Of a stretch of DNA of 48,533 bases, positions 1,039-14,711 are shown piece by piece. This DNA comes from Amycolatopsis thermalba (GTDB lineage: Bacteria; Actinomycetota; Actinomycetes; Mycobacteriales; Pseudonocardiaceae), in the NCBI RefSeq assembly GCF_003385215.1, contig NZ_PQHW01000049.1, forward strand, positions 1 through 48,533. The letters are read 5' to 3'. Within the stretch, counting starts at the first letter, position 1, and the number at the start of each line of letters is the position of its first letter. The position numbers were made by a program, and so were the translations under genes. Below the pieces are notes generated by a model. That model ran no database searches. It was not told the origin of the DNA and was given only the letters and a program-made list of their open reading frames with translations.

Positions 1039-1794
1039 ATGAGCACAGCTACGTCAGCACCAGCGATGATCAGGGCTGCGGGCGTGAACAAGTTCTTCGG
1101 TGACCTGCACGTGCTCAAGGACATCAACCTCGAGGTGCCCAAGGGGCAGGTCGTCGTGGTGCTCGGGCCGTCCGGCTCCGGCAAGTCGACCCTGTGCCGC
1201 GCGATCAACCGGCTGGAGCCGATCAACTCCGGCGAGATCGAGGTGGACGGTCAGCCGCTGCCCGCGGAGGGCAAGGCGCTGGCCGCGCTGCGCGCCGAGG
1301 TCGGCATGGTCTTCCAGTCGTTCAACCTCTTCGCGCACAAGACCATCGTCGAGAACGTGATGCTCGCGCCGGTCAAGGTCCGCAAGATCGGGCAGGAGGA
1401 GGCGCGCAAGACCGCGATGCAGCTGCTGGACCGGGTGGGCATCGCGAACCAGGCGGAGAAGTACCCGGCTCAGCTGTCGGGCGGTCAGCAGCAGCGCGCG
1501 GCGATCGCGCGGGCGCTGGCGATGAAGCCGAAGGTGATGCTGTTCGACGAGCCCACCTCGGCCCTGGACCCGGAGATGGTCCAGGAGGTTCTGGACACCA
1601 TGACCGGGCTGGCCAGGGAGGGCATGACGATGCTCGTGGTCACGCACGAGATGGGCTTCGCCCGTCGCGCCGCGAACCGCGTGGTGTTCATGTCCGACGG
1701 GGAGATCGTCGAGGACGCGTCGCCGGACGAGTTCTTCACGAAGCCGAAGTCGGACCGCGCCAAGGACTTCCTCGGCAAGATCCTGACGCACTAA
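1039..1794 (+). CDS. gluA: glutamate-type amino-acid ABC transporter, ATP-binding protein
   Basis: ATPase subunit of a polar amino-acid importer, 251 aa, the usual length for the GlnQ/GluA family. Walker [10 protein letters not shown] lies at residues 43-51, the Q-loop glutamine at 93, the signature LSGGQQQR at about 146, and Walker B VMLFDEP at 166-172, followed by the D-loop SALD and the switch histidine in VVTHEMG. The start ATG is preceded by GGAGGGC. The open frame extends far upstream, but that part overlaps the secreted-protein and miaB genes and has no family resemblance. It is the first gene of a four-gene plus-strand operon. The gene order ATPase, binding protein, permease, permease equals that of gluABCD in Corynebacterium. 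Substrate (glutamate) is inferred from this order and similarity. Confidence 0.85.
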
Positions 1795-1850
1795 GTGAGT
1801 TCCGCGGCGCCCGATCGGCGCCGCCCGATCCCGGGAGAACAGGAATCCAG

Positions 1851-2762
1851 ATGAAGATCCGCACCCTGGCAGCGGGCCTGCTGGTCGGCGCACTGACGCT
1901 GACCGCTTGCGGTAAGGAGGGCGCCCCCTCCGGCGGCACCGGGGACACCGGAACCGACGCCGCCGCGCTGCCGACCTACACGGTGGCCCAGAACGTGGAC
2001 GTGGCCGGCTCGCCGACCTTCGCCAAGATCAAGGGCGCGGGCAAGCTGACCATCGGCGTGAAGGACGACCAGCCGGGCCTGGGCCAGAAGAACGCGACCA
2101 CCGGCAAGTTCGAGGGCTTCGACATCGAGATCGCCAAGCTGGTCGCCGCCGGCCTCGGCTTCGACGAAAGCAAGATCACCTTCACCACGGTCGACTCGGC
2201 CGCGCGTGAGGCCGCGATCACCAACGGCAACGTCGACTACTACGTCGGCACCTACACCATCACCGACAAGCGCAAGCAGCAGGTCTCCTTCGCCGGCCCG
2301 TACTTCATGGCCGGTCAGGACCTGCTGGTCCGCAAGGACGACACCTCGATCACCGGACCGGAGACCCTGAAGGGCAAGAAGGTCTGCTCGGTGACCGGGT
2401 CGACCCCGATCCAGCGCGTGCGCGACCAGCAGCTGACCGAGGCGGCGAACATCGTCGAGTTCCAGAAGTACTCGCAGTGCGTCGAGAAGCTCATCACCAA
2501 GGAGGTCGACGCCGTCACCACCGACGACGCGATCCTCAAGGGCTTCGCCGCGCAGGACCCGGACAACCTGAAGGTCGTCGGCAAGACGTTCTCGCAGGAG
2601 CCCTACGGCATCGGCCTGCCCCGTGACGACGCCGCGCTGCGCGGCAAGGTGGACGACCTGCTGCAGGCCGCCATCGACGACGGCACCTGGCAGAAGATCT
2701 ACGACGCCACGCTCGGCAAGTCGGGTTCGGCCGCCACGCCGCCGGCGATCCAGCGCTACTGA
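1851..2762 (+). CDS. gluB: glutamate-binding lipoprotein of the ABC transporter
   Basis: Solute-binding protein, 303 aa, family 3 (amino-acid binding). It begins with a lipoprotein signal peptide ending in the lipobox LTAC, so Cys20 would be lipidated and anchor it outside the membrane. Further along are the family-3 hallmarks GFDIEIAKLVAAGLG, a ligand-contact region around DYYVGTYTITDKR, and GKKVCSVTGSTP. Two extra cysteines (KKVCSV and YSQCVE) might form a disulfide, as in other actinobacterial GluB proteins. The start follows the RBS-like GAACAGGA. A perfect 15-bp hairpin follows the stop codon, suggesting that this gene is transcribed or retained at a higher level than gluC and gluD. Confidence 0.85.
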   Translation: MKIRTLAAGLLVGALTLTACGKEGAPSGGTGDTGTDAAALPTYTVAQNVDVAGSPTFAKIKGAGKLTIGVKDDQPGLGQKNATTGKFEGFDIEIAKLVAAGLGFDESKITFTTVDSAAREAAITNGNVDYYVGTYTITDKRKQQVSFAGPYFMAGQDLLVRKDDTSITGPETLKGKKVCSVTGSTPIQRVRDQQLTEAANIVEFQKYSQCVEKLITKEVDAVTTDDAILKGFAAQDPDNLKVVGKTFSQEPYGIGLPRDDAALRGKVDDLLQAAIDDGTWQKIYDATLGKSGSAATPPAIQRY

Positions 2763-2771
2763 CACTCCCTT

Positions 2772-2805
2772 GTGGCCGGTGAGCGCGGGTGCGCTCACCG
2801 GCCAC
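2772..2805 (+). terminator. perfect 15-bp intercistronic hairpin after gluB
   Basis: Bases 2772-2786 are perfectly complementary to 2791-2805 around a GGGT loop. There is no U-tract, and the operon continues 45 bp later, so it is more likely an mRNA-stabilising or partial-termination element that raises binding-protein levels over the permeases than a full terminator. Confidence 0.75.
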
Positions 2806-2849
2806 TCCCTTTCCACTAGTTCCACACCAACCGCGGCGGGGAAGGCCCG

Positions 2850-3497
2850 ATGGACGTCCTGCTCGACAACATGGACCTCTACGGTCCGTTCTTCTGGACC
2901 ACGATCAAGCTGTTCCTGATCTCGGGAGTGGCGAGCCTGATCTTCGGCACGTTCCTGGCCGGCCTGCGGGTCAGCCCGGTCCCGGTGTTCCGCGCGGTCG
3001 GCGCCACGTACGTGACGCTGGTGCGCAACACACCGCTGACGCTGGTGTTCGTGTTCCTGGTGTTCGCCTACCCACTGCTCGACATCATCGACCTGTCGTA
3101 CTTCACCGCCGCGGTGGTGTCGCTGACCCTCTACACCTCGGCGTTCATCTGCGAGGTCGTGCGGTCGGGCATCAACACCGTCCCGGTCGGGCAGGCCGAA
3201 GCCGCCCGCGCGCTGGGGCTGACCTTCACCCAGATCCTCGGCCAGATCGTGCTGCCGCAGGCCATCCGCTCGGTGGTGCCGCCGCTGATGAGCATGCTCA
3301 TCGCGCTGCTGAAGAACACCACCATCGCCGCCGGGTTCTCCGTCGCCGAGGCCGGCGCGATCCGGCAGTACCTGTCCGAGCGCGGTGACAACCAGCTGAT
3401 CGGCCTGCTGTGGGTCGCGCTCGGGTTCATCATCCTGGTCGCGGTCCTGTCCTTCATCCAGCGGGCCCTCGAGAAGCGCTGGAGCGTGGCGCGATGA
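2850..3497 (+). CDS. gluC: glutamate ABC transporter permease GluC
   Basis: Membrane subunit of the amino-acid importer, 215 aa. It has about five hydrophobic segments (roughly residues 14-36, 50-75, 80-105, 145-165 and 185-207) and the family EAA loop, visible as GQAEAARALGLTFTQ, which contacts the ATPase. TLVRNTPLTL near residue 57 is typical of the polar amino-acid (HAAT) permease family. The start follows a GGCGGGGAAGG stretch. Its 3' end overlaps gluD in an ATGA, so the two permeases are likely translationally coupled and form a heterodimer. Confidence 0.85.
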   Translation: MDVLLDNMDLYGPFFWTTIKLFLISGVASLIFGTFLAGLRVSPVPVFRAVGATYVTLVRNTPLTLVFVFLVFAYPLLDIIDLSYFTAAVVSLTLYTSAFICEVVRSGINTVPVGQAEAARALGLTFTQILGQIVLPQAIRSVVPPLMSMLIALLKNTTIAAGFSVAEAGAIRQYLSERGDNQLIGLLWVALGFIILVAVLSFIQRALEKRWSVAR

Positions 3498-4354
3498 GCA
3501 ACGTCCTGTTCGACATCCCCGGCCCGAAGGCCCGCGCCCGCTACCGGGCGCTGGCCGTGCTGGGCACCCTGATCGTCGCCGCGGTGATCGCCTACATCAT
3601 CTGGCGCTTCATCGACAGCGGCCAGTTCTCCGCCCGCCGCTGGGAGTGGCTGCAGTACGCCCAGGTCCAGCGCGACCTGGTGGACGCGCTGCTGGCGACC
3701 CTGCAGGCCTTCGCGCTCGGCGCCGTGCTGGCGCTGGTCTTCGGCGCGATCTTCGCCGCCGGGCGGCTGTCGGATCACGCGTGGGTGCGCGGTGTCTCGA
3801 CCGCGGTCGTCGAGTTCTTCCGCGCCATCCCGCTGCTGATCCTGATGTTCCTCTTCTACTACGGCGCTCCGGTGCTGGGCGTGGCCCTGCCGCCGTTCGC
3901 CGCGGTGGTGCTGGGCCTGACCCTGTACAACGGCTCGGTGCTGGCGGAGGTGTTCCGCGCCGGCATCCTGGCGCTGCCCAAGGGGCAGAGCGAGGCGGCC
4001 TACGCGCTGGGCATGCGCAAGACCCAGGTGATGACGCTCGTCCTGATCCCGCAGGCGGTCCGGTCGATGCTGCCGACGATCATCAGCCAGCTGGTGGTGC
4101 TGCTCAAGGACACCGCGCTCGGGTTCCTGGTCACCTACCCGGAGCTGCTGTACTACGCCCGCTACATCGGCTCGCAGGGCTCGTTCGGCCGGCCGATCGT
4201 CCCGTCGACCCTCGTGGTGGCGGCGATGTACATCGCGTTGTGCCTGCTGCTCACCGCGCTGGCCACCTACATCGAACGCCGCCAGCGGCGCAGCAAGAAG
4301 CACGTGGAAACCCAGCGCCCGCCGACGACGGAGGAGGTCGTGGGCGTGGCCTGA
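3494..4354 (+). CDS. gluD: glutamate ABC transporter permease GluD
   Basis: Second permease of the importer, 286 aa, longer than GluC because of a cytoplasmic N-terminal segment and a basic, polar C-terminal tail (RRQRRSKKH). The EAA loop is GQSEAAYALGMRKTQV, and VEFFRAIPLLILMF is the family's conserved membrane-entry motif. The ATG overlaps the gluC stop by four bases. The gene ends the operon and is followed by a strong bidirectional hairpin. As in Corynebacterium GluD it is the larger of the two permeases. Confidence 0.85.
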   Translation: MSNVLFDIPGPKARARYRALAVLGTLIVAAVIAYIIWRFIDSGQFSARRWEWLQYAQVQRDLVDALLATLQAFALGAVLALVFGAIFAAGRLSDHAWVRGVSTAVVEFFRAIPLLILMFLFYYGAPVLGVALPPFAAVVLGLTLYNGSVLAEVFRAGILALPKGQSEAAYALGMRKTQVMTLVLIPQAVRSMLPTIISQLVVLLKDTALGFLVTYPELLYYARYIGSQGSFGRPIVPSTLVVAAMYIALCLLLTALATYIERRQRRSKKHVETQRPPTTEEVVGVA

Positions 4355-4368
4355 TCCGCGCGACGGCG

Positions 4369-4404
4369 AAGAGGGGCGTGGCGAGCGATCGCCACGCCCC
4401 TCTT
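4369..4404. terminator. bidirectional terminator between gluD and the hydrolase gene
   Basis: A perfect 16-bp inverted repeat (4369-4384 with 4389-4404, loop GCGA) lies between the convergent ends of gluD and the glucosylglycerate-hydrolase-like gene. The stem ends in AAGAGG on the left and CCTCTT on the right, so either transcript gets a short U-rich flank. Likely an intrinsic terminator for both strands. Confidence 0.85.
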
Positions 4405-4415
4405 GTTCGTCCGGG

Positions 4416-5807
4416 TCAGTCCGCGTCGGCGCAGAGCCAGTCGAGCACCACGGCCGCCGTCCAGCTCTGGTCGGTGCTGCCGAGCGGCTCGCCGGTGAAC
4501 GGTTCGTAGTACTCACCGAACGCGCCGTCGTCGGTCAGGCGCAGGCCGGCTTCGCGCAGCTTGCGGGCCCGCTCGTGCCAGCCGCGGCGTTCGAACGCCC
4601 ATCCGAACAGCCAGTTCACGACCGGCCACTGTGGACCGCGCCAGTACTGGCGCGGGTTGAAGCCGGGCCGCATGGGCGACACCGACGGCGGCACCGGCGC
4701 CAGCAGGCCGGGGTGCCCGCACCAGCGGTCGCTGTCCAGCAGCGACAGCAGCCGCAGCTGCACCTCGTCCGGCGCGCCCCCGCACAACAGCGGCGAGAAC
4801 CCGGCGATCGTCTGGGTGTCCAGCCACCGGTTGGCACGCAGGTCGCGATCCCGCGCCATGCCGGACACCGAGTGGCAGCTGGCCGCGACCGCCTCGCGCG
4901 CCCGCGCCGCCCAGTCCGCCAGGTCCGCGAGCTGCGACGCGGGCTGGCCGAACTCGGTGCCCAGCTCGATCAGCACGTCGCAGGACACCGCGAACAGCGC
5001 GGTGATGAACACGTCCCCGACCAGGAAGCTGGAGCTGCGCACGATCTCCTTCTGGTCGTAGCCCGCGCGGCGCATCTCCTCGATGAGCCACAGGTAGCGG
5101 TCGTACTCCTTGTCGGTGGGCCGCTCGCTCGGGTCGCCGATGATGCGCACGTCCTTGCGCACGTACGGCGGCAGCTCCTCCCCCGGGTTGACCGCCGCGT
5201 AGGGCACGTCCCAGCGCGGCGAGTTGTCCATTCCGGACTCCCAGCCGTGCACGATCGCGACCAGCCCGCTCGACCCCGGCGTGCGGTACTCGACCAGCCA
5301 GCGGTGCCAGGAGTACAGCGCGGGCCAGATCGAGCGGGCGAACCGCTCGGCGTCGGCGCGGTCCTGCGGCGAGGAGGCGCGGGCGATCTCCAGCATCCGC
5401 TGCACGGCGATCGCGTGCACCGGCGGCTGGCAGATCCCGGACGTGCGCACGTTCCGCGGCCCGTCGACCGCGGTGTCGGTGCCCCACCGGTCCGGGCCGG
5501 GGAAGTAGGCGTCGTCGTCGGTGAAGACGATGTGCGGCACCATGCCGTTGCGCCACTGCGCCTTGAACAGGGTCTCCAGCTCGGCGACCGCGCGCGGCAG
5601 GTCCAGCCGCGCCAGGCCGATCGAGATGAACGCGGCGTCCCAGCTCCACATGTGCGGGTAGAGCCGCGGCGCCGCGGTGACCACGGCGCCGGTGTCGTTG
5701 TCCCTCAGCACCCGGGCGGCCCGCGCCGCCAGGGTGGGCCTGGCGTAGCGGACCGGTCTACTGCCGCCGGCGGCTCCTTCCGGGGGTCGGCTGACGTCGA
5801 CGGTCAT
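4416..5807 (-). CDS. ggH: glucosylglycerate hydrolase-like GH63 glycosidase
   Basis: Probable (alpha/alpha)6-barrel glycosidase, 463 aa, similar to mycobacterial glucosylglycerate hydrolase (GgH, 446 aa), which splits glucosylglycerate to glucose and glycerate. The motif YPHMWSWDAAF (50-60) is typical of the MGH1/GH63 fold. ESGMDNSPRWD puts the likely catalytic acid at D194, and GEYYEPFTGE puts the likely base at E432. As I recall, the catalytic residues of the M. hassiacum enzyme are D182 and E419, so both align at a near-constant offset of 12-13. There is no signal peptide, so it acts in the cytosol. The ATG directly follows the stop of the ABC ATPase gene, with GGAGGCG as RBS, so it closes the transporter operon. 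Mannosylglycerate or a related glycoside are alternative substrates. Confidence 0.8.
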   Translation of the reverse strand: MTVDVSRPPEGAAGGSRPVRYARPTLAARAARVLRDNDTGAVVTAAPRLYPHMWSWDAAFISIGLARLDLPRAVAELETLFKAQWRNGMVPHIVFTDDDAYFPGPDRWGTDTAVDGPRNVRTSGICQPPVHAIAVQRMLEIARASSPQDRADAERFARSIWPALYSWHRWLVEYRTPGSSGLVAIVHGWESGMDNSPRWDVPYAAVNPGEELPPYVRKDVRIIGDPSERPTDKEYDRYLWLIEEMRRAGYDQKEIVRSSSFLVGDVFITALFAVSCDVLIELGTEFGQPASQLADLADWAARAREAVAASCHSVSGMARDRDLRANRWLDTQTIAGFSPLLCGGAPDEVQLRLLSLLDSDRWCGHPGLLAPVPPSVSPMRPGFNPRQYWRGPQWPVVNWLFGWAFERRGWHERARKLREAGLRLTDDGAFGEYYEPFTGEPLGSTDQSWTAAVVLDWLCADAD

Positions 5808-6884
5808 CTACTTCGCCTCCAACAGGAGCTGGGTTTCCGGGTCGTACCACCGGCACTGCTCCGGCGGCAGGCCCAGCTTCAGGGTCTGGCCGGGTTCGGC
5901 GCGGAAACTCGCCGGTGCCTGGACTTTCAGTACCTGCCCGCACAGCTCCGTGGTGAGCAGCGTCGAGGACCCCAGCGGCTCGAACACCTGCACCTCGCCG
6001 CGCAGGCCGTCCGATGCGGGTTCGACGGAGATCGACTCGGGCCGGATGCCGAGCCGCAACCGCTTGCCCTGGAACGACTTCAGGGCGCGCGGGACCGGCA
6101 GCGTCTGGCCGCCGAAGTCGATCCGCGTGCCGTCCTCGCTGACGGCACCGGTGAGGAAGTTCATCGGCGGGCTGCCCAGGAACCCGCCGACGAACTCGTC
6201 CGCCGGTTCGGTGTAGACGGCGACCGGGTCGCCGCACTGGGCGATGCGCCCCTCGCGCATGACGGCGACCCGGTCGCCCAGCGACAGCGCCTCGACCTGG
6301 TCGTGCGTCACGTACAGCGTGGTCACGCCGATCTCGTTGACCAGCTTCTTCAGCTCGGCGCGGAAGGACAGCCGCAGCAGCGCGTCCAGATTGGACAGCG
6401 GCTCGTCCATCAGCAGCACGTCGGCGTCCATCACGATCGCCCGCGCCACCGCCACGCGCTGCCGCTGACCGCCGGACAGCTTCGCCGGGTACCGGTCCAG
6501 GTAGGGCGTGAGCTGCAGCAGCTCCGCGGCCCACTCGACCTTCTTGCGCACCTCGTCCGCGGGCACTCCGTGCACGCGCAGGCCGAAGCCGATGTTGTCG
6601 GCGACCTTCTTGTTCGGGAACACCGCGTACGACTGGAACACCATGGACAGGTTGCGCCGCCGCGGTTCCAGGTAGGTGACGTCGCGGCCGCCGATGACGA
6701 TCTGGCCCGAGTCCGGCGTCTCCAGCCCGGCCACCATCCGCAGCAGCGTGGTCTTGCCGCAGCCGGACGGGCCGAGCAGGACCATGAACTCACCGTCGGC
6801 CACCTCGAGCGACACCTCGTCGGTGGCGCGCGCGGTGCCGCCCGGGTAGGTCTTCACGAGCTCGTGCAAGACGACCTCAGCCAT
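5808..6884 (-). CDS. sugar-type ABC transporter ATP-binding protein (MalK/UgpC/MsmX-like)
   Basis: Energy-coupling subunit of a CUT1-type importer, 358 aa. Walker A GPSGCGKT is at 38-45, the Q-loop glutamine at 84, the signature LSGGQ at 136-140, and Walker B DVLLMDE at 155-161. A C-terminal TOBE/OB region follows, from about residue 230, including LRLGIRPESI. It starts 9 bp after the upstream permease gene and is followed without a gap by the hydrolase gene. ATPases of this family can serve several importers; the tight operon suggests this one is dedicated to the local system. Confidence 0.9.
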   Translation of the reverse strand: MAEVVLHELVKTYPGGTARATDEVSLEVADGEFMVLLGPSGCGKTTLLRMVAGLETPDSGQIVIGGRDVTYLEPRRRNLSMVFQSYAVFPNKKVADNIGFGLRVHGVPADEVRKKVEWAAELLQLTPYLDRYPAKLSGGQRQRVAVARAIVMDADVLLMDEPLSNLDALLRLSFRAELKKLVNEIGVTTLYVTHDQVEALSLGDRVAVMREGRIAQCGDPVAVYTEPADEFVGGFLGSPPMNFLTGAVSEDGTRIDFGGQTLPVPRALKSFQGKRLRLGIRPESISVEPASDGLRGEVQVFEPLGSSTLLTTELCGQVLKVQAPASFRAEPGQTLKLGLPPEQCRWYDPETQLLLEAK

Positions 6885-6893
6885 GGCGCTCCC

Positions 6894-7742
6894 TCATCGC
6901 AGCGTGGTCCCCCACATGTTCACCAGGTACCGGCGCATCACGAAGATGAACACCAGCGCGGGCAGGATCAGCGCGAAGCCGCCGGCGAACCGGTAGGCCT
7001 GCGGCGCCTCCCCGAGCGAGGCCAGCACCTGGGCGGGCAGTGTCCGGTGCCCGAGCGTGATCACGGCGGCGCCGAGGATCTCGTTCCAGGACAACACGAA
7101 CGTGAAGATCGAAGACGCCGCCAGTCCGGGCAGCGCGAGCGGGAACACGACCCGGCGCGCCGCCTCGAACCGGCTGCAGCCGAACACGCGGGCGGCCTCT
7201 TCGACGTCGGTGGGCACCGAGACGAAGATGCTCGCGCTGATCAGCACGGTGGTCGGCATGGCGAGCGTGGTGTGCAGCAGCGTCACCGAGAACACCGTGT
7301 CGTAGACGCCGAAGTTCAGGAACATCGTCGCCAGCGGCACGGACAGCACCACGATCGGCAGCGCGCGGGCCAGCAGCATGAACACCTGGTAGGCGTCCTT
7401 GCCGCGGAACACCTGGCGCGCCAGCGCGTACCCGGCGGGCGCGCCGACCAGCAGCGACAGCACGACCGTGTAGACGCCGACGAGCAGCGAGTTGCCCAGC
7501 GCCGGGACGGTGCCGGTGGCCTGGATGAACGCCAGCAGCGTGTCGGCGGAGAAGGCGCTCGGGATCAGCGGCTTCGGGAACTCCAGCAGCGCCTGCGGCG
7601 AGGACACCGCGGCCAGCCCGATCAGGATCATCGGCACGACCATGAACAGGCTGATCAGCACGCACGCGACCTGGACGGCGATCGCGCGGCGGCGACGACG
7701 GCGCAGCGGCGCCCGGTCGATCGGCGGCAGGGTCGTGGTCAC
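6894..7742 (-). CDS. carbohydrate ABC transporter permease (MalG-like)
   Basis: Inner-membrane permease, 282 aa, with six predicted membrane segments and the EAA loop EEAARVFGCSRFEAARRVVFP at roughly residues 188-208. A cytoplasmic N-terminus rich in arginine (RRRRRR near residue 15) precedes the first segment. The GTG start at 7742 overlaps the stop of the upstream permease as GTGA, which indicates coupled translation. The frame is open further upstream, but only as a shadow of the neighbouring gene. It pairs with the next gene to form the channel. Confidence 0.85.
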   Translation of the reverse strand: MTTTLPPIDRAPLRRRRRRAIAVQVACVLISLFMVVPMILIGLAAVSSPQALLEFPKPLIPSAFSADTLLAFIQATGTVPALGNSLLVGVYTVVLSLLVGAPAGYALARQVFRGKDAYQVFMLLARALPIVVLSVPLATMFLNFGVYDTVFSVTLLHTTLAMPTTVLISASIFVSVPTDVEEAARVFGCSRFEAARRVVFPLALPGLAASSIFTFVLSWNEILGAAVITLGHRTLPAQVLASLGEAPQAYRFAGGFALILPALVFIFVMRRYLVNMWGTTLR

Positions 7743-8614
7743 CTGGCCGCCTCCCGCTGCCGCATGGTGCGCAGGTAGAACAGCGCCGTGGCGAGGGACA
7801 GCGCCAGCACGACCAGCGCGGCCGCGCTGGCGACGGCCGGGTTCTGCAGGTTGACGTACCACTGGTAGGTCTCCCCGACCAGCAGCGGGAAGTCCCGCCC
7901 GGTCAGCGCCTGCGCGACCGCGAACGCCTGCAGCGCCAGGATCGTGCGCAGGATCAGCGCGACCTGCAGGCTCGGCTTGAGCTGCGGCAGCGTCACGTGC
8001 CACAACCGCTGCCACGCGGTCGCGCCGAACACCTGCGCGGCCTCGTCGAAGTCCTTCGGCACCATCTGGATGCCGGCCACCACGATGACGAACACCAGCG
8101 ACGTGGCGCGCCAGATCTCGGCGATCACCACGGCCAGCAGCATGGTGGACGTGTTGGTGTAGGTCAGCCACTGCACGCCGGTGCCGGAGATCCCCCACGA
8201 CACCAGCAGCGAGTTGAGGTAGCCGCGGCTGTCGAACACCGACAGCCACACCAGGCCGGCGGCCAGCTCGGACACCGCGAGCGGGATGGTCCACAGGTAG
8301 AAGTGGCCGGACAGGAACCTCGGCCGGGCCTGCACGAGCAGCGCCATCGCCACGGCCAGCACGAGCTGGACCGGCACCACGATGACGATCAGCAGCAGGG
8401 TGTTGCGCAGCGCTTTCAGGAAGTACGGGTCGCCGAAGAGCCGGTCCCACGCCGCGAGCGTGAACCCGGAGCCGTCGGTGAACGCCGAGATCAGCGCCTG
8501 GATCACCGGCCAGCCGAACAGGGCCAGCATGAACACGATCGACGGCGCGAGCAGCAGCCACGGCGAACCCGCCAGGCGACGCCTCTTCGGTGCTTCCAGG
8601 ACGGCCACGGCCAT
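7739..8614 (-). CDS. carbohydrate ABC transporter permease (MalF/UgpA-like)
   Basis: First permease of the importer, 291 aa, with about six membrane segments. The N-terminal segment SPWLLLAPSIVFMLALFGWPV is characteristic of MalF/UgpA-type proteins, and the EAA loop reads DEAAQVFGATAWQRLWHVTLP. The ATG at 8614 overlaps the stop of the binding-protein gene by one base (TGATG). Substrate is unknown from sequence alone; the hydrolase at the end of the operon suggests a glycosylated glycerate. Confidence 0.85.
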   Translation of the reverse strand: MAVAVLEAPKRRRLAGSPWLLLAPSIVFMLALFGWPVIQALISAFTDGSGFTLAAWDRLFGDPYFLKALRNTLLLIVIVVPVQLVLAVAMALLVQARPRFLSGHFYLWTIPLAVSELAAGLVWLSVFDSRGYLNSLLVSWGISGTGVQWLTYTNTSTMLLAVVIAEIWRATSLVFVIVVAGIQMVPKDFDEAAQVFGATAWQRLWHVTLPQLKPSLQVALILRTILALQAFAVAQALTGRDFPLLVGETYQWYVNLQNPAVASAAALVVLALSLATALFYLRTMRQREAAR

Positions 8615-9933
8615 CAGGCCACCTCGCAACGCTCGGCGGGCGGATCGGGCGCCCAGCACGGCACCTTCAGATCGTCGAACACCTTCTGCAGCACCCGCGC
8701 CTGACTGTCCAAAGTCGACCGGATGTCCGCTCCGTCGAGGACGATCGCCTGGAAGGAGTCCTTGAACGCCTTGGTGACCTCGCCCTCGCGGGTGCCCAGG
8801 CCGACCGGCAGCAGGGACAGGATCGAGCCGGGCGCGTCCCGCTGGCGCTGCACCGCGCCGGCCTCCATCTGCAGGGCGGGCGGCAGGTCGGCGGGGATCG
8901 GCGCGTCCACCACCGGGAAGAACCCGTTCGACCGCAGCAGCCCGGTCTGCGCCTGCGGCGCGGACAGCGCCTGGATCACCTGCTCGGCCTGGCGGCGGTC
9001 GGTGCTGCCCTTGGGGATCGCGAGCCCGAGCACGACGGCCATGTAGCCCAGGCCGCGGGGGCCGCGCGGCGCGGGCAGCATGCGCCACCGCTGCGGCTGG
9101 CCGCCGGGTGCGGACACCAGGCGCGCGACGTGGTCCCAGCCGATCTTCGCCGCGCCCGCCTGCAGCGGCTCCTGCATGAAGTCGTAGGTGGTGCTGGACG
9201 GGCTGGTGTTGGCCCACAGCTCCTTGAGGTACTGCCACGCGGTGACGGCCTCCGGCGAGCGGAACGTGGTGATCTGGCCGCCGGTGAACGAGGGCAGCAG
9301 GTAGCCCTGCAGGAAGCGGTGGATCAGGCCCTTCGGCCCGCACGGCAGGCCCAGCATCGGCTGGTTGCCGTTGGCGCGGCGGGCGGCGATCGCCCAGTCC
9401 AGGAACTGGTCGTAGGTGAGGGTGTCCGGGTCCGCGCCCGGTGGCAGGTGGGCCAGGGCGTCCTCGTGCGCGGCGAGCACGAAGCTGGCCTGCGCCCACG
9501 GGACGTACCAGGACTGCTGGGTGCCGGCCTTGGCCAGCGCCAGGAACTCGTCCGGGATCCCGTGGCCGGCCGGCACGCCGGAGACGTCCTCCAGGTACTC
9601 GCCGGCGAGCGGGGCGAGGTCGCTGTGCGAGCCGCCGAGCAGGCCGACCTGGGTGCGCCCGGCGCCGACCTGGCTCTGCACCTGGCTGGCGAACGGGCCC
9701 TCCTCGATGGTGACGTAGCTCACCGATCCGGGGAAGGTCCCGGCCAGGAACGTCCGGAAGCGTTCGGCCTCGGCTACCGGCCGGAACTGCGTGGACAGGA
9801 AGACCACGCCGCCGCCGCCCGTGGTCGCGAATCCGACGCACCCGGCGGCCATGGAGGCGGCGCCGGCCAGGAAGACCCCCCGGAGGACGGTACGACGGGT
9901 GGGGCCGCTGCCGGTCAGGCTGGCCGCGCGCAT
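8614..9933 (-). CDS. extracellular solute-binding lipoprotein, family 1
   Basis: Binding protein of the importer, 439 aa, the usual length for family-1 sugar-binding proteins. The N-terminus carries a twin-arginine-like motif RRTVLRG (13-19), a hydrophobic stretch and a lipobox AAGC with Cys32, so it is a likely Tat-exported lipoprotein. Family features include LVSAPGGQPQRWRMLPAPRG and a C-terminal region with KAFKDSFQAI. A GGTGG-type RBS precedes the ATG. It opens the minus-strand operon and is divergent from the ROK regulator, with 77 bp between the two starts. Confidence 0.85.
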   Translation of the reverse strand: MRAASLTGSGPTRRTVLRGVFLAGAASMAAGCVGFATTGGGGVVFLSTQFRPVAEAERFRTFLAGTFPGSVSYVTIEEGPFASQVQSQVGAGRTQVGLLGGSHSDLAPLAGEYLEDVSGVPAGHGIPDEFLALAKAGTQQSWYVPWAQASFVLAAHEDALAHLPPGADPDTLTYDQFLDWAIAARRANGNQPMLGLPCGPKGLIHRFLQGYLLPSFTGGQITTFRSPEAVTAWQYLKELWANTSPSSTTYDFMQEPLQAGAAKIGWDHVARLVSAPGGQPQRWRMLPAPRGPRGLGYMAVVLGLAIPKGSTDRRQAEQVIQALSAPQAQTGLLRSNGFFPVVDAPIPADLPPALQMEAGAVQRQRDAPGSILSLLPVGLGTREGEVTKAFKDSFQAIVLDGADIRSTLDSQARVLQKVFDDLKVPCWAPDPPAERCEVA

Positions 9934-9961
9934 TCAGTTCCACCCCGATGTCGCCGTCTAC

Positions 9962-9988
9962 ACTTCTGTCTGGTCATTGAACATAAGT
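9962..9988. promoter_or_regulatory. candidate operator between the transporter operon and the ROK gene
   Basis: ACTTCTGT (9962-9969) and ACATAAGT (9981-9988) form an inverted repeat with 7 of 8 matching positions and an 11-bp spacer, in the 77-bp gap between the divergent starts. The position suits a ROK-family repressor controlling both directions. This is a weak single-copy motif and its role is inferred. Confidence 0.35.
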
Positions 9989-10010
9989 CCTCGCGGGAGA
10001 TCCTGTCAAC

Positions 10011-11174
10011 ATGCCCCCGGCACGCACCGGCTCGCCCACCTCGGCCGGCCACATCCTCGCGATCCTGCGCGACGAGGGACCGCTGACGCGGCAGCAGCTG
10101 CAGGACCGGACCGGCCTGTCCCGCGCGACCCTGGTCGAACGGCTCGACGTGCTGCAGCGGCTGAAGCTGCTGCGCCAGGTCGGGCACCGCGCGTCCAGCG
10201 GCGGGCGGCCCGCCGAGATGCTCGCCGCCGACGACGTGGGCCGGACCGCGCTGGTCGGCGACATCGGCCAGCGGCACGCGACGATCGCCGCGGTGGACCT
10301 GCGCGGCACCGTGTTCGGGCAGGTGCGTCGCCCGCTGCCGGCCGGGCACCGGCCGGCGGAGACGCTGTCCTTCCTGCTGGACGCCGGGCGCAGGCTGCTG
10401 GCCGAGGCCGGGCGCGCGGACAGCCTGTGCGCGTTCGGGCTGAGCGTGCCGGGGCAGATCGACCACGACACCGGCACGACGATCGCGCCGCCGTCGATGT
10501 CGGAGTGGCGGGGGGTCCGGCTGCGCGACCCCTTCACCGACGCGCTGTCGGTGCCGGTGTTCCTGGAGAACGACGCGAACGCGCTGGCGTTCGGCGCGTA
10601 CTGCGAGATGAACCGGCCGCGCGCGGCGCTGGTCGGGGTGAAGGTCGGCACCGGGATCGGCGCGGGGATGGTGATCTCCGGGCGGGTGCACCGCGGCGAG
10701 ACCGGGTGCGCCGGCGAGGTGGGGCACATCCGCATCGAGGGTTCCGACCTGCGCTGCGACTGCGGGCGGCGGGGCTGCGTGTCGGCGATCGCCAGCGGCC
10801 AGGCGGTGATCCGCACGCTGCGGCCGACGGGGGTGCGCAGCGCGGAGGATGTGCTGCGCCGGGTGCGCGCCGGTCACCCCGAGGCGGTCCGCGTGACGCG
10901 CGAGGCGGGCCGGCTGGTGGGCACGGTGCTGGCGACCGTGGTGACGATCGTGAACCCGCGGTACGTGCGGGTCGGCGGGGCGATCGGGGTGCTGCCGCCG
11001 TTCCTGGAGGGACTGCGCGAGGTGGTGCTGGCCGGCGCGCACACCAGTTCACTGGACAGCCTCGACATCGGGCCCTGCACGCTCGGCGTCGACACCACGC
11101 TGACCGGCGTGGCGGGCCTCGTCGCGGACGAGGTCCTGGCCCCGGAGACGGTCGATGCGATGGCGGCGCTGTAG
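10011..11174 (+). CDS. ROK-family transcriptional regulator
   Basis: Sugar-responsive repressor-type protein, 387 aa. A winged helix-turn-helix occupies about residues 12-70 (ILRDEGPLTRQQLQDRTGLS), followed by a ROK actin-like domain. The domain shows the VGTGIGAG glycine-rich motif (212-219) and FLENDANALAFG with D188. The zinc motif is GEVGHI with H239 plus C249, C251 and C256 in CDCGRRGC. The residue after the last cysteine region, normally glutamate in CLEA, is altered (CVSA), which may affect ligand binding. It is divergent from the importer-hydrolase operon, so it most likely represses that operon and is induced by a sugar derivative. Confidence 0.85.
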   Translation: MPPARTGSPTSAGHILAILRDEGPLTRQQLQDRTGLSRATLVERLDVLQRLKLLRQVGHRASSGGRPAEMLAADDVGRTALVGDIGQRHATIAAVDLRGTVFGQVRRPLPAGHRPAETLSFLLDAGRRLLAEAGRADSLCAFGLSVPGQIDHDTGTTIAPPSMSEWRGVRLRDPFTDALSVPVFLENDANALAFGAYCEMNRPRAALVGVKVGTGIGAGMVISGRVHRGETGCAGEVGHIRIEGSDLRCDCGRRGCVSAIASGQAVIRTLRPTGVRSAEDVLRRVRAGHPEAVRVTREAGRLVGTVLATVVTIVNPRYVRVGGAIGVLPPFLEGLREVVLAGAHTSSLDSLDIGPCTLGVDTTLTGVAGLVADEVLAPETVDAMAAL

Positions 11175-11208: not shown

Positions 11209-11964
11209 CTAATCCGCCTTCCGCCGGAAGATCTTGCTGCCCAGCCAGACCACCGGGTCGTACCGGTGGTCCACCACGCGTTCCTTCATCGGGATCAGCG
11301 CGTTGTCGGTGATGTGGATGTTCTCCGGGCAGACCTCCGTGCAGCACTTCGTGATGTTGCAGTACCCGAGGCCGTGCTCGTCCTGGGCGGCGTGCCTGCG
11401 GTCGGCCACGTCGAGCGGGTGCATCTCCAGCTCGGCGATCCGCATCAGGAACCGCGGCCCGGCGAAGTTCTCCTTGTTCTCCTCGTGGTCGCGGATCACG
11501 TGGCAGGTGTTCTGGCACAGGAAGCACTCGATGCACTTGCGGAACTCCTGCGAGCGCTCCACGTCGACCTGCTTCATCCGGTACTCGCCCGGTTTCAGGT
11601 TCGCCGGCGGGGTGAACGCGGGGATCTCGCGCGCCTTCGTGTAGTTGTACGAGACATCGGTGACGAGGTCGCGGATCACCGGGAACGTCCGCATCGGCGT
11701 GACGGTGACGACCTCGTCCTCGGCGAAGACCGACATGCGCGTCATGCACAGCAGCCGCGGGCGGCCGTTGATCTCCGCCGAGCACGAGCCGCACTTGCCC
11801 GCCTTGCAGTTCCACCGCACCGCCAGGTCCGAGCACTGCGTGGCCTGCAGCCGGTGGATGATGTCGAGCACGACCTCACCCTCGTTGACCTCGACCGTGA
11901 AGTCCTGCAGCCCGCCGCTGTTCGCGTCGCCGCGCCACACCCGGAACGAAGCCTTGTAGCTCAC
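11209..11964 (-). CDS. sdhB: succinate dehydrogenase iron-sulfur subunit (Sdh1 type)
   Basis: Iron-sulfur subunit, 251 aa, passing electrons from the flavoprotein to the membrane anchor. The [2Fe-2S] cysteines are C53, C58, C61 and C73. The ferredoxin-like half has CIECFLCQNTC (144-154), and further cysteines at 202, 207-208 and 212 complete the [4Fe-4S] and [3Fe-4S] sites. The GTG start at 11964 overlaps the sdhA stop as GTGA and has GGGGAGG as RBS. It is the last gene of the minus-strand operon. It resembles mycobacterial Rv0247c-type Sdh1 more than the SdhB of the four-subunit Sdh2. Confidence 0.93.
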   Translation of the reverse strand: MSYKASFRVWRGDANSGGLQDFTVEVNEGEVVLDIIHRLQATQCSDLAVRWNCKAGKCGSCSAEINGRPRLLCMTRMSVFAEDEVVTVTPMRTFPVIRDLVTDVSYNYTKAREIPAFTPPANLKPGEYRMKQVDVERSQEFRKCIECFLCQNTCHVIRDHEENKENFAGPRFLMRIAELEMHPLDVADRRHAAQDEHGLGYCNITKCCTEVCPENIHITDNALIPMKERVVDHRYDPVVWLGSKIFRRKAD

Positions 11965-13874
11965 GACTGCCTCCCCGGGTGGCCGGCCAGCTCTTCGTCG
12001 GTGTAGTACTTCTCCAGCTCGCTCAGCTCGAACAGCTCCAGCAGCTCGGGCCGCATCGGCTCCTGGTCCTTCGGCGTGACCGTGACCTCCAGCGCCAGTG
12101 GATCGTCCCCGGAGGCGCTGCACACCAGCAGCTTGTTGCGCCACCGGGAATCCATCTGCGGGTAGTCGTCCCGCGTGTGCCCGCCCCGGCTCTCGGTGCG
12201 CATCAGCGCGGCCCGCGCGACGCACTCGCTGACCAGCAGCATGTTGCGCAGGTCCACGGCCAGGTGCCAGCCCGGGTTGAACTGCCGGTGCCCCTCGACG
12301 GTGACGTTGCGGATGCGCTTCTTGATCTCGTCCAGCTTGGCCAGCGCCTGCTCGATCTCCTCGGCCTTGCGGATGATCCCGACCAGGTCGTTCATCGCCT
12401 GCTGCAGCTCGTTGTGCAGGGTGTACGGGTTCTCCTCGACACCCTCGGCGGGCGGGTCGAACGGCACCAGCGCGGTGCGGGCCGCCTTGTCGACATCGGA
12501 CTGCGCGACCGCGGGACGGGTCTCCAGACCCTCCACATAGGACGCGGCGCCGAGACCCGCGCGACGGCCGAACACCAGCAGGTCCGACAGCGAGTTGCCA
12601 CCCAGCCGGTTGGACCCGTGCATCCCGCCGGAGCACTCCCCCGCCGCGAACAACCCGCGCACGCCGGAGGCCGCGGTGTCCGGGTCGACCTCGATGCCGC
12701 CCATCACGTAGTGACAGGTCGGGCCGACCTCCATCGGCTCGGCGGTGATGTCCACATCGGCCAGTTCCTTGAACTGGTGGTACATCGACGGCAGCCGCCT
12801 GCGGATCTCCTCCGGCGTCAGGCGGCTGGCGATGTCCAGGAACACGCCACCGTGCGGCGACCCGCGCCCCGCCTTGACCTCGGAGTTGATCGCCCGCGCC
12901 ACCTCGTCGCGCGGCAGCAGGTCCGGCGTGCGGCGGTTGTTCTCCTGGTCGGTGTACCAGCGGTCGGCCTCCTCCTCGGAGTCGGCGTACTGGCCCTTGA
13001 ACACGTCCGGCACGTAGTCGAACATGAACCGCTTGTCCTCGGAGTTCTTCAGCACCCCGCCGTCACCGCGCACGCCCTCGGTGACCAGGATGCCCTTCAC
13101 GCTGGGCGGCCAGACCATGCCCGTCGGGTGGAACTGGACGAACTCCATGTTGATCAGGTCCGCCCCGGCGCGCAGCGCGAGCGCGTGCCCGTCGCCGGTG
13201 TACTCCCACGAGTTCGACGTGACCTTGAACGACTTGCCGATGCCGCCCGTCGCGAGCACCACGGCCGGCGTCTCGAACAGGATGAACCGGCCGCTCTCCC
13301 GCCAGTACCCGAACGCCCCGGCGATCCGGTCACCGTCCTTGAGCAGCTCGGTGATCGTGCACTCGGCGAAGACCTTCAGCTTGGCCTCGTAGTCGCCGAA
13401 CTCGCGGAGGTCCTCCTGCTGCAGCGAGACGATCTTCTGCTGCATCGTGCGGATCAGCTCCAGCCCGGTGCGGTCGCCGACGTGCGCCAGCCGCGGGTAG
13501 GTGTGCCCGCCGAAGTTGCGCTGGCTGATCCGCCCGTCCGGGGTGCGGTCGAACAGGGCGCCGTAGGTCTCCAGCTCCCACACCCGGTCCGGCGCCTCCT
13601 TGGCGTGCAGCTCCGCCATGCGCCAGTTGTTGAGGAACTTGCCGCCGCGCATGGTGTCCCGGAAGTGCACCTGCCAGCTGTCCCGCTCGTTCGCGTTGCC
13701 CATCGCGGCGGCGCACCCGCCCTCGGCCATGACCGTGTGCGCCTTGCCGAACAGCGACTTGCACACCACCGCCACCGACAGCCCGCGCTGCCGCGCCTCG
13801 ATCACCGCTCGCAGACCGGCGCCACCGGCGCCGATCACCACCACGTCATAACTGTGCCGCTCGACTTCCGCCAT
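11961..13874 (-). CDS. sdhA: succinate dehydrogenase flavoprotein subunit (Sdh1 type)
   Basis: Catalytic flavoprotein, 637 aa, oxidising succinate to fumarate. The FAD-binding GAGGAG motif lies at residues 15-20. H46 in KAHTVMAEGG is the probable covalent FAD attachment site. QFHPTGM and LVTEGVRGDGG mark the substrate region, and NRLGGNSLSDLLVFG is the second conserved FAD contact. It is in one operon with the anchor gene upstream (30 bp gap) and sdhB downstream. Similar proteins are often annotated as fumarate reductase/succinate dehydrogenase; direction cannot be read from the sequence. Confidence 0.94.
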   Translation of the reverse strand: MAEVERHSYDVVVIGAGGAGLRAVIEARQRGLSVAVVCKSLFGKAHTVMAEGGCAAAMGNANERDSWQVHFRDTMRGGKFLNNWRMAELHAKEAPDRVWELETYGALFDRTPDGRISQRNFGGHTYPRLAHVGDRTGLELIRTMQQKIVSLQQEDLREFGDYEAKLKVFAECTITELLKDGDRIAGAFGYWRESGRFILFETPAVVLATGGIGKSFKVTSNSWEYTGDGHALALRAGADLINMEFVQFHPTGMVWPPSVKGILVTEGVRGDGGVLKNSEDKRFMFDYVPDVFKGQYADSEEEADRWYTDQENNRRTPDLLPRDEVARAINSEVKAGRGSPHGGVFLDIASRLTPEEIRRRLPSMYHQFKELADVDITAEPMEVGPTCHYVMGGIEVDPDTAASGVRGLFAAGECSGGMHGSNRLGGNSLSDLLVFGRRAGLGAASYVEGLETRPAVAQSDVDKAARTALVPFDPPAEGVEENPYTLHNELQQAMNDLVGIIRKAEEIEQALAKLDEIKKRIRNVTVEGHRQFNPGWHLAVDLRNMLLVSECVARAALMRTESRGGHTRDDYPQMDSRWRNKLLVCSASGDDPLALEVTVTPKDQEPMRPELLELFELSELEKYYTDEELAGHPGRQS

Positions 13875-13904
13875 TGCCTGCCCACCTAGTCCTTGAAGTC
13901 CTTG

Positions 13905-14711
13905 TCAGTCCACGAAACGCAGATCGGGGATGGCGCCGCTGGCCACGAGCATCACGTAGAGGTCGGTGACCACGAGCGTCCCCAGGGTGATCCAGGCCAG
14001 CAGCATGTGCCGGTTGTTGAGCTTGGTGACCTGGGTCCAGAGCCAGTACCGCACCGGGTGGCGGGAGAAGTGCTTCAACCGCCCGCCGACCACGTGCCGG
14101 CACGAGTGGCAGGACAGGGTGTAGGCCCAGAGCATGATCACGTTGCCGAGCAGGACCAGGTTGCCCAGCCCGAAGCCGAACCCGCCGGTCTCGCCGTGGA
14201 ACGCGACGATCGCGTCGTAGGTGTTGATCACCGAGATCAGCACCGCCACGTAGAAGAAGTAACGGTGGGCGTTCTGCAGGATCAGCGGCAGCCGGGTCTC
14301 CCCCGTGTAGCGGCCGTGCGGTTCGGCGACCGCGCACGCCGGCGGCGAGAACCACACCGACCGGTAGTAGGCCTTGCGGTAGTAGTAGCAGGTCAGGCGG
14401 AAGCCGAGCAGGAACGGCAGCGACAGGAACGCCAGCGGGATCCAGCCCGGCAGCTCGCCGAACGGCGTGCCGAAGTGGGCCGACCCCGGCACGCACGAGT
14501 CGCTCAGGCACGGCGAGTAGAACGGCGTCAGGTAGCCGTACTCCGGCACGTAGTAGGCGGTGCGGACGAACGAGCGGATGCCGGCGTAGATGACGAAGGC
14601 GGCCAGTCCGAGCGTGGTGAACAGCGGCGGGACCCACCACCGGTCGGTGCGCAGGGTCCGTGCGGTGATCCGGGCGCGCCCGCTAGCGGCGTCGGTAGCG
14701 GGAGCGCTCAC
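13905..14711 (-). CDS. sdhC: succinate dehydrogenase membrane anchor (Sdh1 type, SdhC)
   Basis: Membrane anchor, 268 aa, with about five hydrophobic segments (roughly 31-49, 91-108, 153-170, 184-202, 237-256). It corresponds to Rv0249c-type anchors rather than the classic cytochrome-b556 SdhC. A CHSCRH cluster (C201, H202, C204, H206) lies at the end of a membrane segment. From memory, a structure of mycobacterial Sdh1 reported a Rieske-type cluster in the membrane, and this motif is a good candidate for it. The GTG start overlaps the stop of the preceding small gene as GTGA. Two further cysteine pairs sit in loops (C68/C73 and C108/C126). Confidence 0.85.
   Translation of the reverse strand: MSAPATDAASGRARITARTLRTDRWWVPPLFTTLGLAAFVIYAGIRSFVRTAYYVPEYGYLTPFYSPCLSDSCVPGSAHFGTPFGELPGWIPLAFLSLPFLLGFRLTCYYYRKAYYRSVWFSPPACAVAEPHGRYTGETRLPLILQNAHRYFFYVAVLISVINTYDAIVAFHGETGGFGFGLGNLVLLGNVIMLWAYTLSCHSCRHVVGGRLKHFSRHPVRYWLWTQVTKLNNRHMLLAWITLGTLVVTDLYVMLVASGAIPDLRFVD

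Follow-up and report, generated by a model that had tools for sequence, protein, structure and literature searches.

A candidate ROK-controlled operon for glucosylglycerate uptake and hydrolysis in Amycolatopsis

Genes of the locus and the hydrolase

The window analysed here is a stretch of 48,533 nucleotides (nt) from contig NZ_PQHW01000049.1 (C167) of the 7.24 Mb Amycolatopsis thermalba assembly G000. It contains genes for a solute-binding lipoprotein, two permeases, an ATPase and a glucosylglycerate hydrolase (GgH), together with the gene of a ROK-family regulator (Table 1). We consider it likely that in this soil actinobacterium these genes form a ROK-controlled scavenging operon for glucosylglycerate, a natural protectant, with mannosylglycerate possibly a second substrate. 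A preliminary description, made from the letters of this DNA, had named the same six genes, and all of them were found in place.

Read directly along the minus strand, the gene order is lipoprotein, permease A, permease B, ATPase and GgH. The term "overlapping operon", used in the preliminary description, fits two of the four junctions: the lipoprotein and permease genes overlap by 1 nt and the two permease genes by 4 nt. At the other two, permease and ATPase are separated by 9 nt, and the ATPase and GgH genes abut. The ROK gene is indeed divergent from the operon, with 77 base pairs (bp) between it and the lipoprotein gene. GgH is the last gene of the unit; the next gene, an ABC permease by translation, is convergent and ends at 4354, and a scan of 4300-10100 gave no terminator-like site. 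The operon holds neither a glucose nor a glycerate kinase, and no glycosidase other than GgH.

Table 1. Features of the candidate operon and its regulator, and GpgS-type genes elsewhere in the host genome
Feature	Positions	Strand	Basis
GgH (glucosylglycerate hydrolase), 463 amino acids	4416-5807	-	NF047898 equivalog; M. hassiacum GgH alignment
MalK/UgpC-type ATPase of CUT1 sugar ABC importer	5808-6884	-	ABC_tran, OB_MalK, TOBE_2
Permease B, GTG start	6894-7742	-	BPD_transp_1, 72 bits
Permease A	7739-8614	-	BPD_transp_1, 57 bits
Solute-binding lipoprotein	8614-9933	-	SBP_bac_1; twin-arginine and lipobox-like N-terminus (RR...AAGC), by eye
Candidate ROK operator, 27-bp imperfect inverted repeat	9962-9988	-	Conserved block across related loci
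Sigma-70-like promoter of the operon, TTGACA-18-TATGTT, -10 inside the candidate operator	9980-10009	-	
Divergent ROK-family regulator, helix-turn-helix (HTH) and ROK domain	10011-11174	+	ROK, 166 bits
GpgS-type gene, contig 190 (L190)	9100-10062		
GpgS-type gene, contig 79 (L191)	9098-10153		

GgH scores 734 bits against NF047898, the NCBIfam equivalog model for glucosylglycerate hydrolase (family GH63, cut-off 550 bits), and is the only match to this model in the host genome; its domain family is MGH1-like_GH. Its nearest relatives in named genomes are from A. deserti (98%) and A. tucumanensis (95%). Alignment with the solved M. hassiacum GgH (PDB 5ohc and others) gives 59% identity, or 255 of 435 aligned positions. 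As the preliminary description had it, both catalytic positions are conserved (Asp182 and Glu419 in M. hassiacum numbering). The same is true of all 16 ligand-contact residues beyond the catalytic pair, giving 18 of 18 among those that the accessible part of PMC6608630 names for the M. hassiacum enzyme. Ten further positions, in the access tunnel, loop E and second shell as given there, comprise seven that are the same and three that are changed. No signal peptide was visible when the N-terminus was inspected by eye. According to the accessible part of that source, M. hassiacum GgH hydrolyses glucosylglycerate, and mannosylglycerate less well, and hydrolyses neither glucosylglycerol nor glucosylglycolate. 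Because of the equivalog score, the residue conservation and this reported specificity, glucosylglycerate is a fairly safe prediction for the substrate of GgH, whereas the fine specificity is less settled.

Importer, regulator and predicted mechanism

Each protein of the putative transporter belongs to the family expected of a CUT1-type sugar ABC importer: an SBP_bac_1 lipoprotein as solute-binding protein (SBP), two BPD_transp_1 permeases, and a MalK-type ATPase in which ABC_tran is joined by the OB_MalK and TOBE_2 domains. The best NCBIfam models for the ATPase are UgpC and MalK, both matched under their cut-offs. Known CUT1 importers (MalEFGK type; GacH, MalE3) have the same domain set and lipoprotein fold, but the solved binders listed are only 10-19% identical to this lipoprotein. 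Gene linkage is what makes glucosylglycerate the candidate ligand of the importer, and two diverged copies support the link. One (G022/L188) keeps the importer beside GgH at identities of 43% (SBP), 38% (permease A), 45% (permease B), 55% (ATPase) and 46% (GgH). The other (G144/L197) is arranged GgH-SBP-permease A-permease B-ATPase, with identities of 39-57%. A profile of the lipoprotein family, scored against the top four candidates in each of 393 sampled genomes, gave a match at E <= 1e-40 in two of them, and in both the matching gene adjoins one of the GgH family.

The regulator has an N-terminal HTH and a ROK domain, the HTH models being matched under their cut-offs. Sequence comparison relates it to ROK proteins of solved structure, Mlc among them, with the ROK regulator 1z05 matched over residues 11-328. 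A conserved operator-like repeat lies at its own locus, as expected of a ROK repressor and as read from sequence only. The promoter-like site in front of the operon is the only one in 4300-10100 (5.8 kb), compared with a mean of 0.1 in shuffles; the 77-bp gap between ROK and lipoprotein genes includes its -10 and most of the rest. The repeat spans this -10, and its half sites are nearly fixed across 30 distinct versions from related loci.

The core of the candidate operator follows the regulator closely. Allowing up to two mismatches, 52 of the 57 loci where ROK adjoins the unit contain it; the remaining five have three (three loci), five (one) and eight (one) mismatches. In front of GgH it occurs at 0 of 87 loci without an adjacent ROK, where the best match has five mismatches. 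ROK loci were searched in the gap from ROK to the first gene, and the other loci over up to 400 bp before GgH. These 144 loci include some genomes twice, same-genome duplicates having been kept. The 87 include L049/L184 (one genome, operator before the lipoprotein gene), L188, and L162/L163 (ROK downstream). The pattern was derived from ROK-side loci, and its independent controls are the group without ROK and the reversed pattern. Scanned across 27 whole genomes, the pattern lies at this locus in 25 and at one further site elsewhere (G008, two mismatches); the reversed control gave one match. In Tamaricihabitans (L049/G036), the operator precedes the lipoprotein gene with two mismatches, and a separate contig carries the ROK gene (65% identity). 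From this linkage we infer that ROK is a local, dedicated regulator of the unit, with the repeat as its putative binding site.

Together, these features suggest the following mechanism. The lipoprotein would capture glucosylglycerate outside the cell, and the two permeases and the ATPase would carry it inward. Cytoplasmic GgH would cleave it, with inversion, to glucose and D-glycerate, which unlinked kinases would pass into central metabolism; the host genome carries two glycerate kinase genes at sites away from the operon. ROK, bound to the 27-bp repeat over the operon's -10, would block transcription until it meets a ligand, either the solute or glucose. In this scheme the lipoprotein's ligand, the direction and inducer of regulation and the physiological role are thus predictions.

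Distribution of the importer and alternative readings

Several observations weigh against this scavenging reading, the first of them in the proteins and the operator. Three tunnel and loop residues of the template enzyme are altered in GgH (Gln215 to Glu, Met432 to Thr and Gln433 to Asp); the last two positions are in loop E and adjoin the substrate-binding Gln434, which is conserved. The lipoprotein has no phmmer match among solved structures, i.e. no close solved relative, and proteins that match its fold bind a wide range of ligands, including maltose, cello- and sophoro-oligosaccharides, acarbose and glycerophosphocholine. The repeat is imperfect, pairing at 8 of 13 positions in the window and at 6-11 of 13 in relatives. 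When base-centred dyads were included in a dyad test, 6 of 30 versions had four or fewer other centres scoring equally, and in several versions (f32 g77, L047, L057) many centres did. As a conserved block the repeat is therefore strong, but its palindromic character is less so. Neither G011 nor the diverged G022 operon has the operator.

The altered residues and the varied ligands of the fold neighbours would fit an importer that takes another alpha-glucoside or a short oligosaccharide, degraded by GgH or other enzymes, and hence a broader diet. We regard this as quite unlikely: all 18 checked catalytic and ligand-contact residues are kept, the template enzyme refuses even glucosylglycerol and glucosylglycolate (accessible part of PMC6608630), and the operon lacks a second glycosidase. 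As a separate observation, the two loop E positions are MQ in most lone GgH rows (68 of 79) and in none of the 20 whole-operon rows. This pattern tracks the GgH tree, and it might or might not matter for specificity.

The distribution among relatives cuts both ways. Within the genus we compared 19 genomes, one of them the window's. The whole set occurs in 11; seven keep ROK, operator and GgH but lack the importer, and G011 carries a distant ROK-GgH pair. Because these seven genomes keep the rest of the unit, uptake is not essential to the ROK-GgH switch. Likewise, in a class sample of 393 genomes, 41 of which have GgH above cut-off, a window-type importer stands beside GgH in one of the 41, the window's own. 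That relatives lose the importer yet keep the rest could also mean that a generic sugar importer merely happens to lie between ROK and GgH. To such a chance neighbourhood we give almost no credence, because the same gene order is present in 11 of 19 genus genomes, its own included. The whole set also occurs in several other genera among 80 named loci, the best 80 of at least 578 relatives, and the two diverged copies (38-57% identity), one in a different order, argue against chance as well.

Traces of the importer remain in some of the genomes that lack it. In the seven importer-less genus genomes, a whole-genome search with the lipoprotein found no match in six and a 45-residue remnant in G016. 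Between ROK and GgH, two of the seven retain clear remnants: A. acididurans (L040/L180) matches SBP residues 98-120 (E 1e-7) and, more weakly, the SBP start and the ATPase, and A. bartoniae (L046/L176) matches SBP residues 1-57 (E 1e-18). These E-values were computed on a tiny sequence set, and the noise level of the search is given by a 13-residue match at E 0.002 in the distant L166. Candidate remnants in metagenome locus L099 were too weak to count (E 0.005-0.007), and the other gaps at ROK-only loci gave nothing under E 0.1. Two importer genes, permease A in L174 (G002) and the SBP in L175 (G003), are each broken in two by tblastn, which a frameshift or small indel may explain.

More widely, those 80 named loci comprise 15 with the whole set, one with the importer and no adjacent ROK, 12 with ROK and GgH only, and 52 with neither; in four of the 52, GgH lies less than 1 kb from the contig's upstream end. 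Nine fetched genomes of the genus coded f32 g77 (L153-L161) have ROK, operator and GgH only. We built a GgH tree by a quick method from 73 hand-chosen rows, namely the readable, non-identical rows with ROK or importer plus 24 lone ones. It has at least ten changes of importer presence, gains and losses not being separated, and some of its deep rows are long-branched. A. sacchari, with the whole set, pairs with A. bartoniae, with its remnant (support 90). The whole set of Nocardia amamiensis groups with two Prauserella (89) inside a larger Prauserella/Saccharomonospora set (95), while a second, lone GgH of strain NBRC 102102 groups with Nocardia-side rows (98; loci L059/L060 versus L095). On the tree, the whole operon of N. 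amamiensis looks like a lateral gain. The ROK-GgH switch is a stable core, and the importer is a dispensable module.

The source of the solute gives the remaining point against scavenging. The host genome has two genes for glucosyl-3-phosphoglycerate synthase (GpgS), at 434 and 432 bits (cut-off 262), so it can probably make glucosylglycerate itself, and for the same reason GgH may also serve internal turnover. Every one of the 19 genus genomes has at least one GpgS above cut-off, several congeners having two and others one; the importer is therefore not there for want of GpgS. An argument that the host lacks biosynthesis was rejected on account of its two genes. The description of the locus as self-contained is likewise an overstatement, given the absence of a kinase from the operon, the two GpgS genes and the importer-less switch in 7 of 19 genus genomes.

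Self-made glucosylglycerate might thus leak, with the importer mainly recapturing it and GgH mobilising an internal pool after stress. Such recycling would agree with the GpgS genes of the host and genus, with the importer-less GgH under the same switch, and with the internal pool on which mycobacterial GgH acts (accessible part of PMC6608630). We think it improbable nonetheless: for a retained osmolyte, an importer and a hydrolase in a single transcription unit would make a futile loop. Moreover, 12 of the 41 class-sample GgH genomes have no GpgS above cut-off (29 have one), so GgH does not require a GpgS of its own genome. Eleven of the 12 are from the genus coded f32 g77 and the other is G389; as the search was for GpgS and not for MpgS, Ggs or GpgP, these genomes may either depend on external solute or produce it by a different route. 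Uptake and hydrolysis of a glycosylglycerate, as originally proposed, remains the best reading given the predicted specificity of GgH and the gene linkage. The case for an outside origin of the solute is tempered by GpgS and by the importer-less relatives.

Two genomes without GpgS above cut-off (L162 and L163, from G183 and G253) have GgH beside a second GgH-like gene (27-28%), with a ROK downstream (34%) and, 2.4-3.6 kb upstream, divergent homologues of the permeases (27-38%). They possibly represent a separately assembled importer-GgH cluster.

A broader view, which we put forward tentatively and hold as somewhat less than probable, is that soil actinobacteria trade glucosylglycerate as a nutrient. 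The ROK-operator-GgH core would be stable and the dedicated ABC importer a plug-in that internal deletions remove or that passes from one genus to another; where present, it would switch GgH from internal recycling to foraging. Lineages that have GgH and no GpgS would then be pure consumers.

Known systems and significance

The general kind of system, a sugar uptake and catabolism operon, is already known, and glycosylglycerate uptake is known or proposed for other gene sets. In E. coli, MngB is a hydrolase and MngR a local repressor, and the ycj operon has ABC transporter genes. The Mng system uses a phosphotransferase system (PTS) where the window has an ABC importer, and its enzyme and regulator are unrelated to the window's. 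Like the window operon as we read it, MngA/MngB/MngR serves uptake of an external glycosylglycerate: the MngA PTS supports mannosylglycerate uptake and growth on it (accessible part of PMC8490865). The ycj carbohydrate operon places a glucosylglycerate enzyme, YcjM, under a local repressor, YcjW (PMC6599011, in part). YcjM is a glucosylglycerate phosphorylase of GH13_18 (PMC7178133, in part); phosphorolysis, a LacI-type regulator and the handling of kojibiose as well set ycj apart from the window operon. Use of external glucosylglycerate has likewise been proposed for Prochlorococcus, with a putative transporter, but its glucosylglycerate metabolism operon is also concerned with synthesis, and breakdown there leads to glucose 1-phosphate (accessible part of PMC11631117).

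Mycobacterial GgH, here that of M. hassiacum, is of the same equivalog family as the window enzyme, sharing the identity and checked residues given above and differing at the three tunnel and loop positions. The accessible part of PMC6608630 describes it for internal glucosylglycerate after nitrogen starvation, and the words transporter, operon and uptake are absent from the main text. Sampled GgH loci on the Nocardia/Rhodococcus/Mycobacterium side have neither the window ROK nor its importer adjacent, except the second copy in N. amamiensis; some have general ABC ATPase genes a few kb from GgH. As far as the accessible parts go, PMC5507952 names glucosylglycerate and no such pathway, PMC11768025 and PMC12195061 hold nothing on transport, and PMC11009771 mentions GgH as mycobacterial only. 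In the literature searched, which most subscription papers lay beyond, we found no description of a GgH-ABC-ROK operon and no characterised ABC uptake system for glucosylglycerate, in keeping with the earlier remark that this role is not known to have been described for the gene set.

If the scavenging reading is true, GgH has, beyond its role in mycobacterial recovery from dormancy, a second one as the key step in a pathway of regulated uptake; a transporter and a regulator can be named for glucosylglycerate; and this compound counts among the solutes that bacteria take from one another. The tree neighbours A. sacchari, with the importer, and A. bartoniae, with a remnant, offer a natural experiment, being predicted to differ in growth on external glucosylglycerate.

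On either side of the locus, as judged from translations only, lie an adjoining amino-acid type ABC system with an SBP and two permeases (1194-4354) and apparent succinate dehydrogenase/fumarate reductase subunits (11209-14711).

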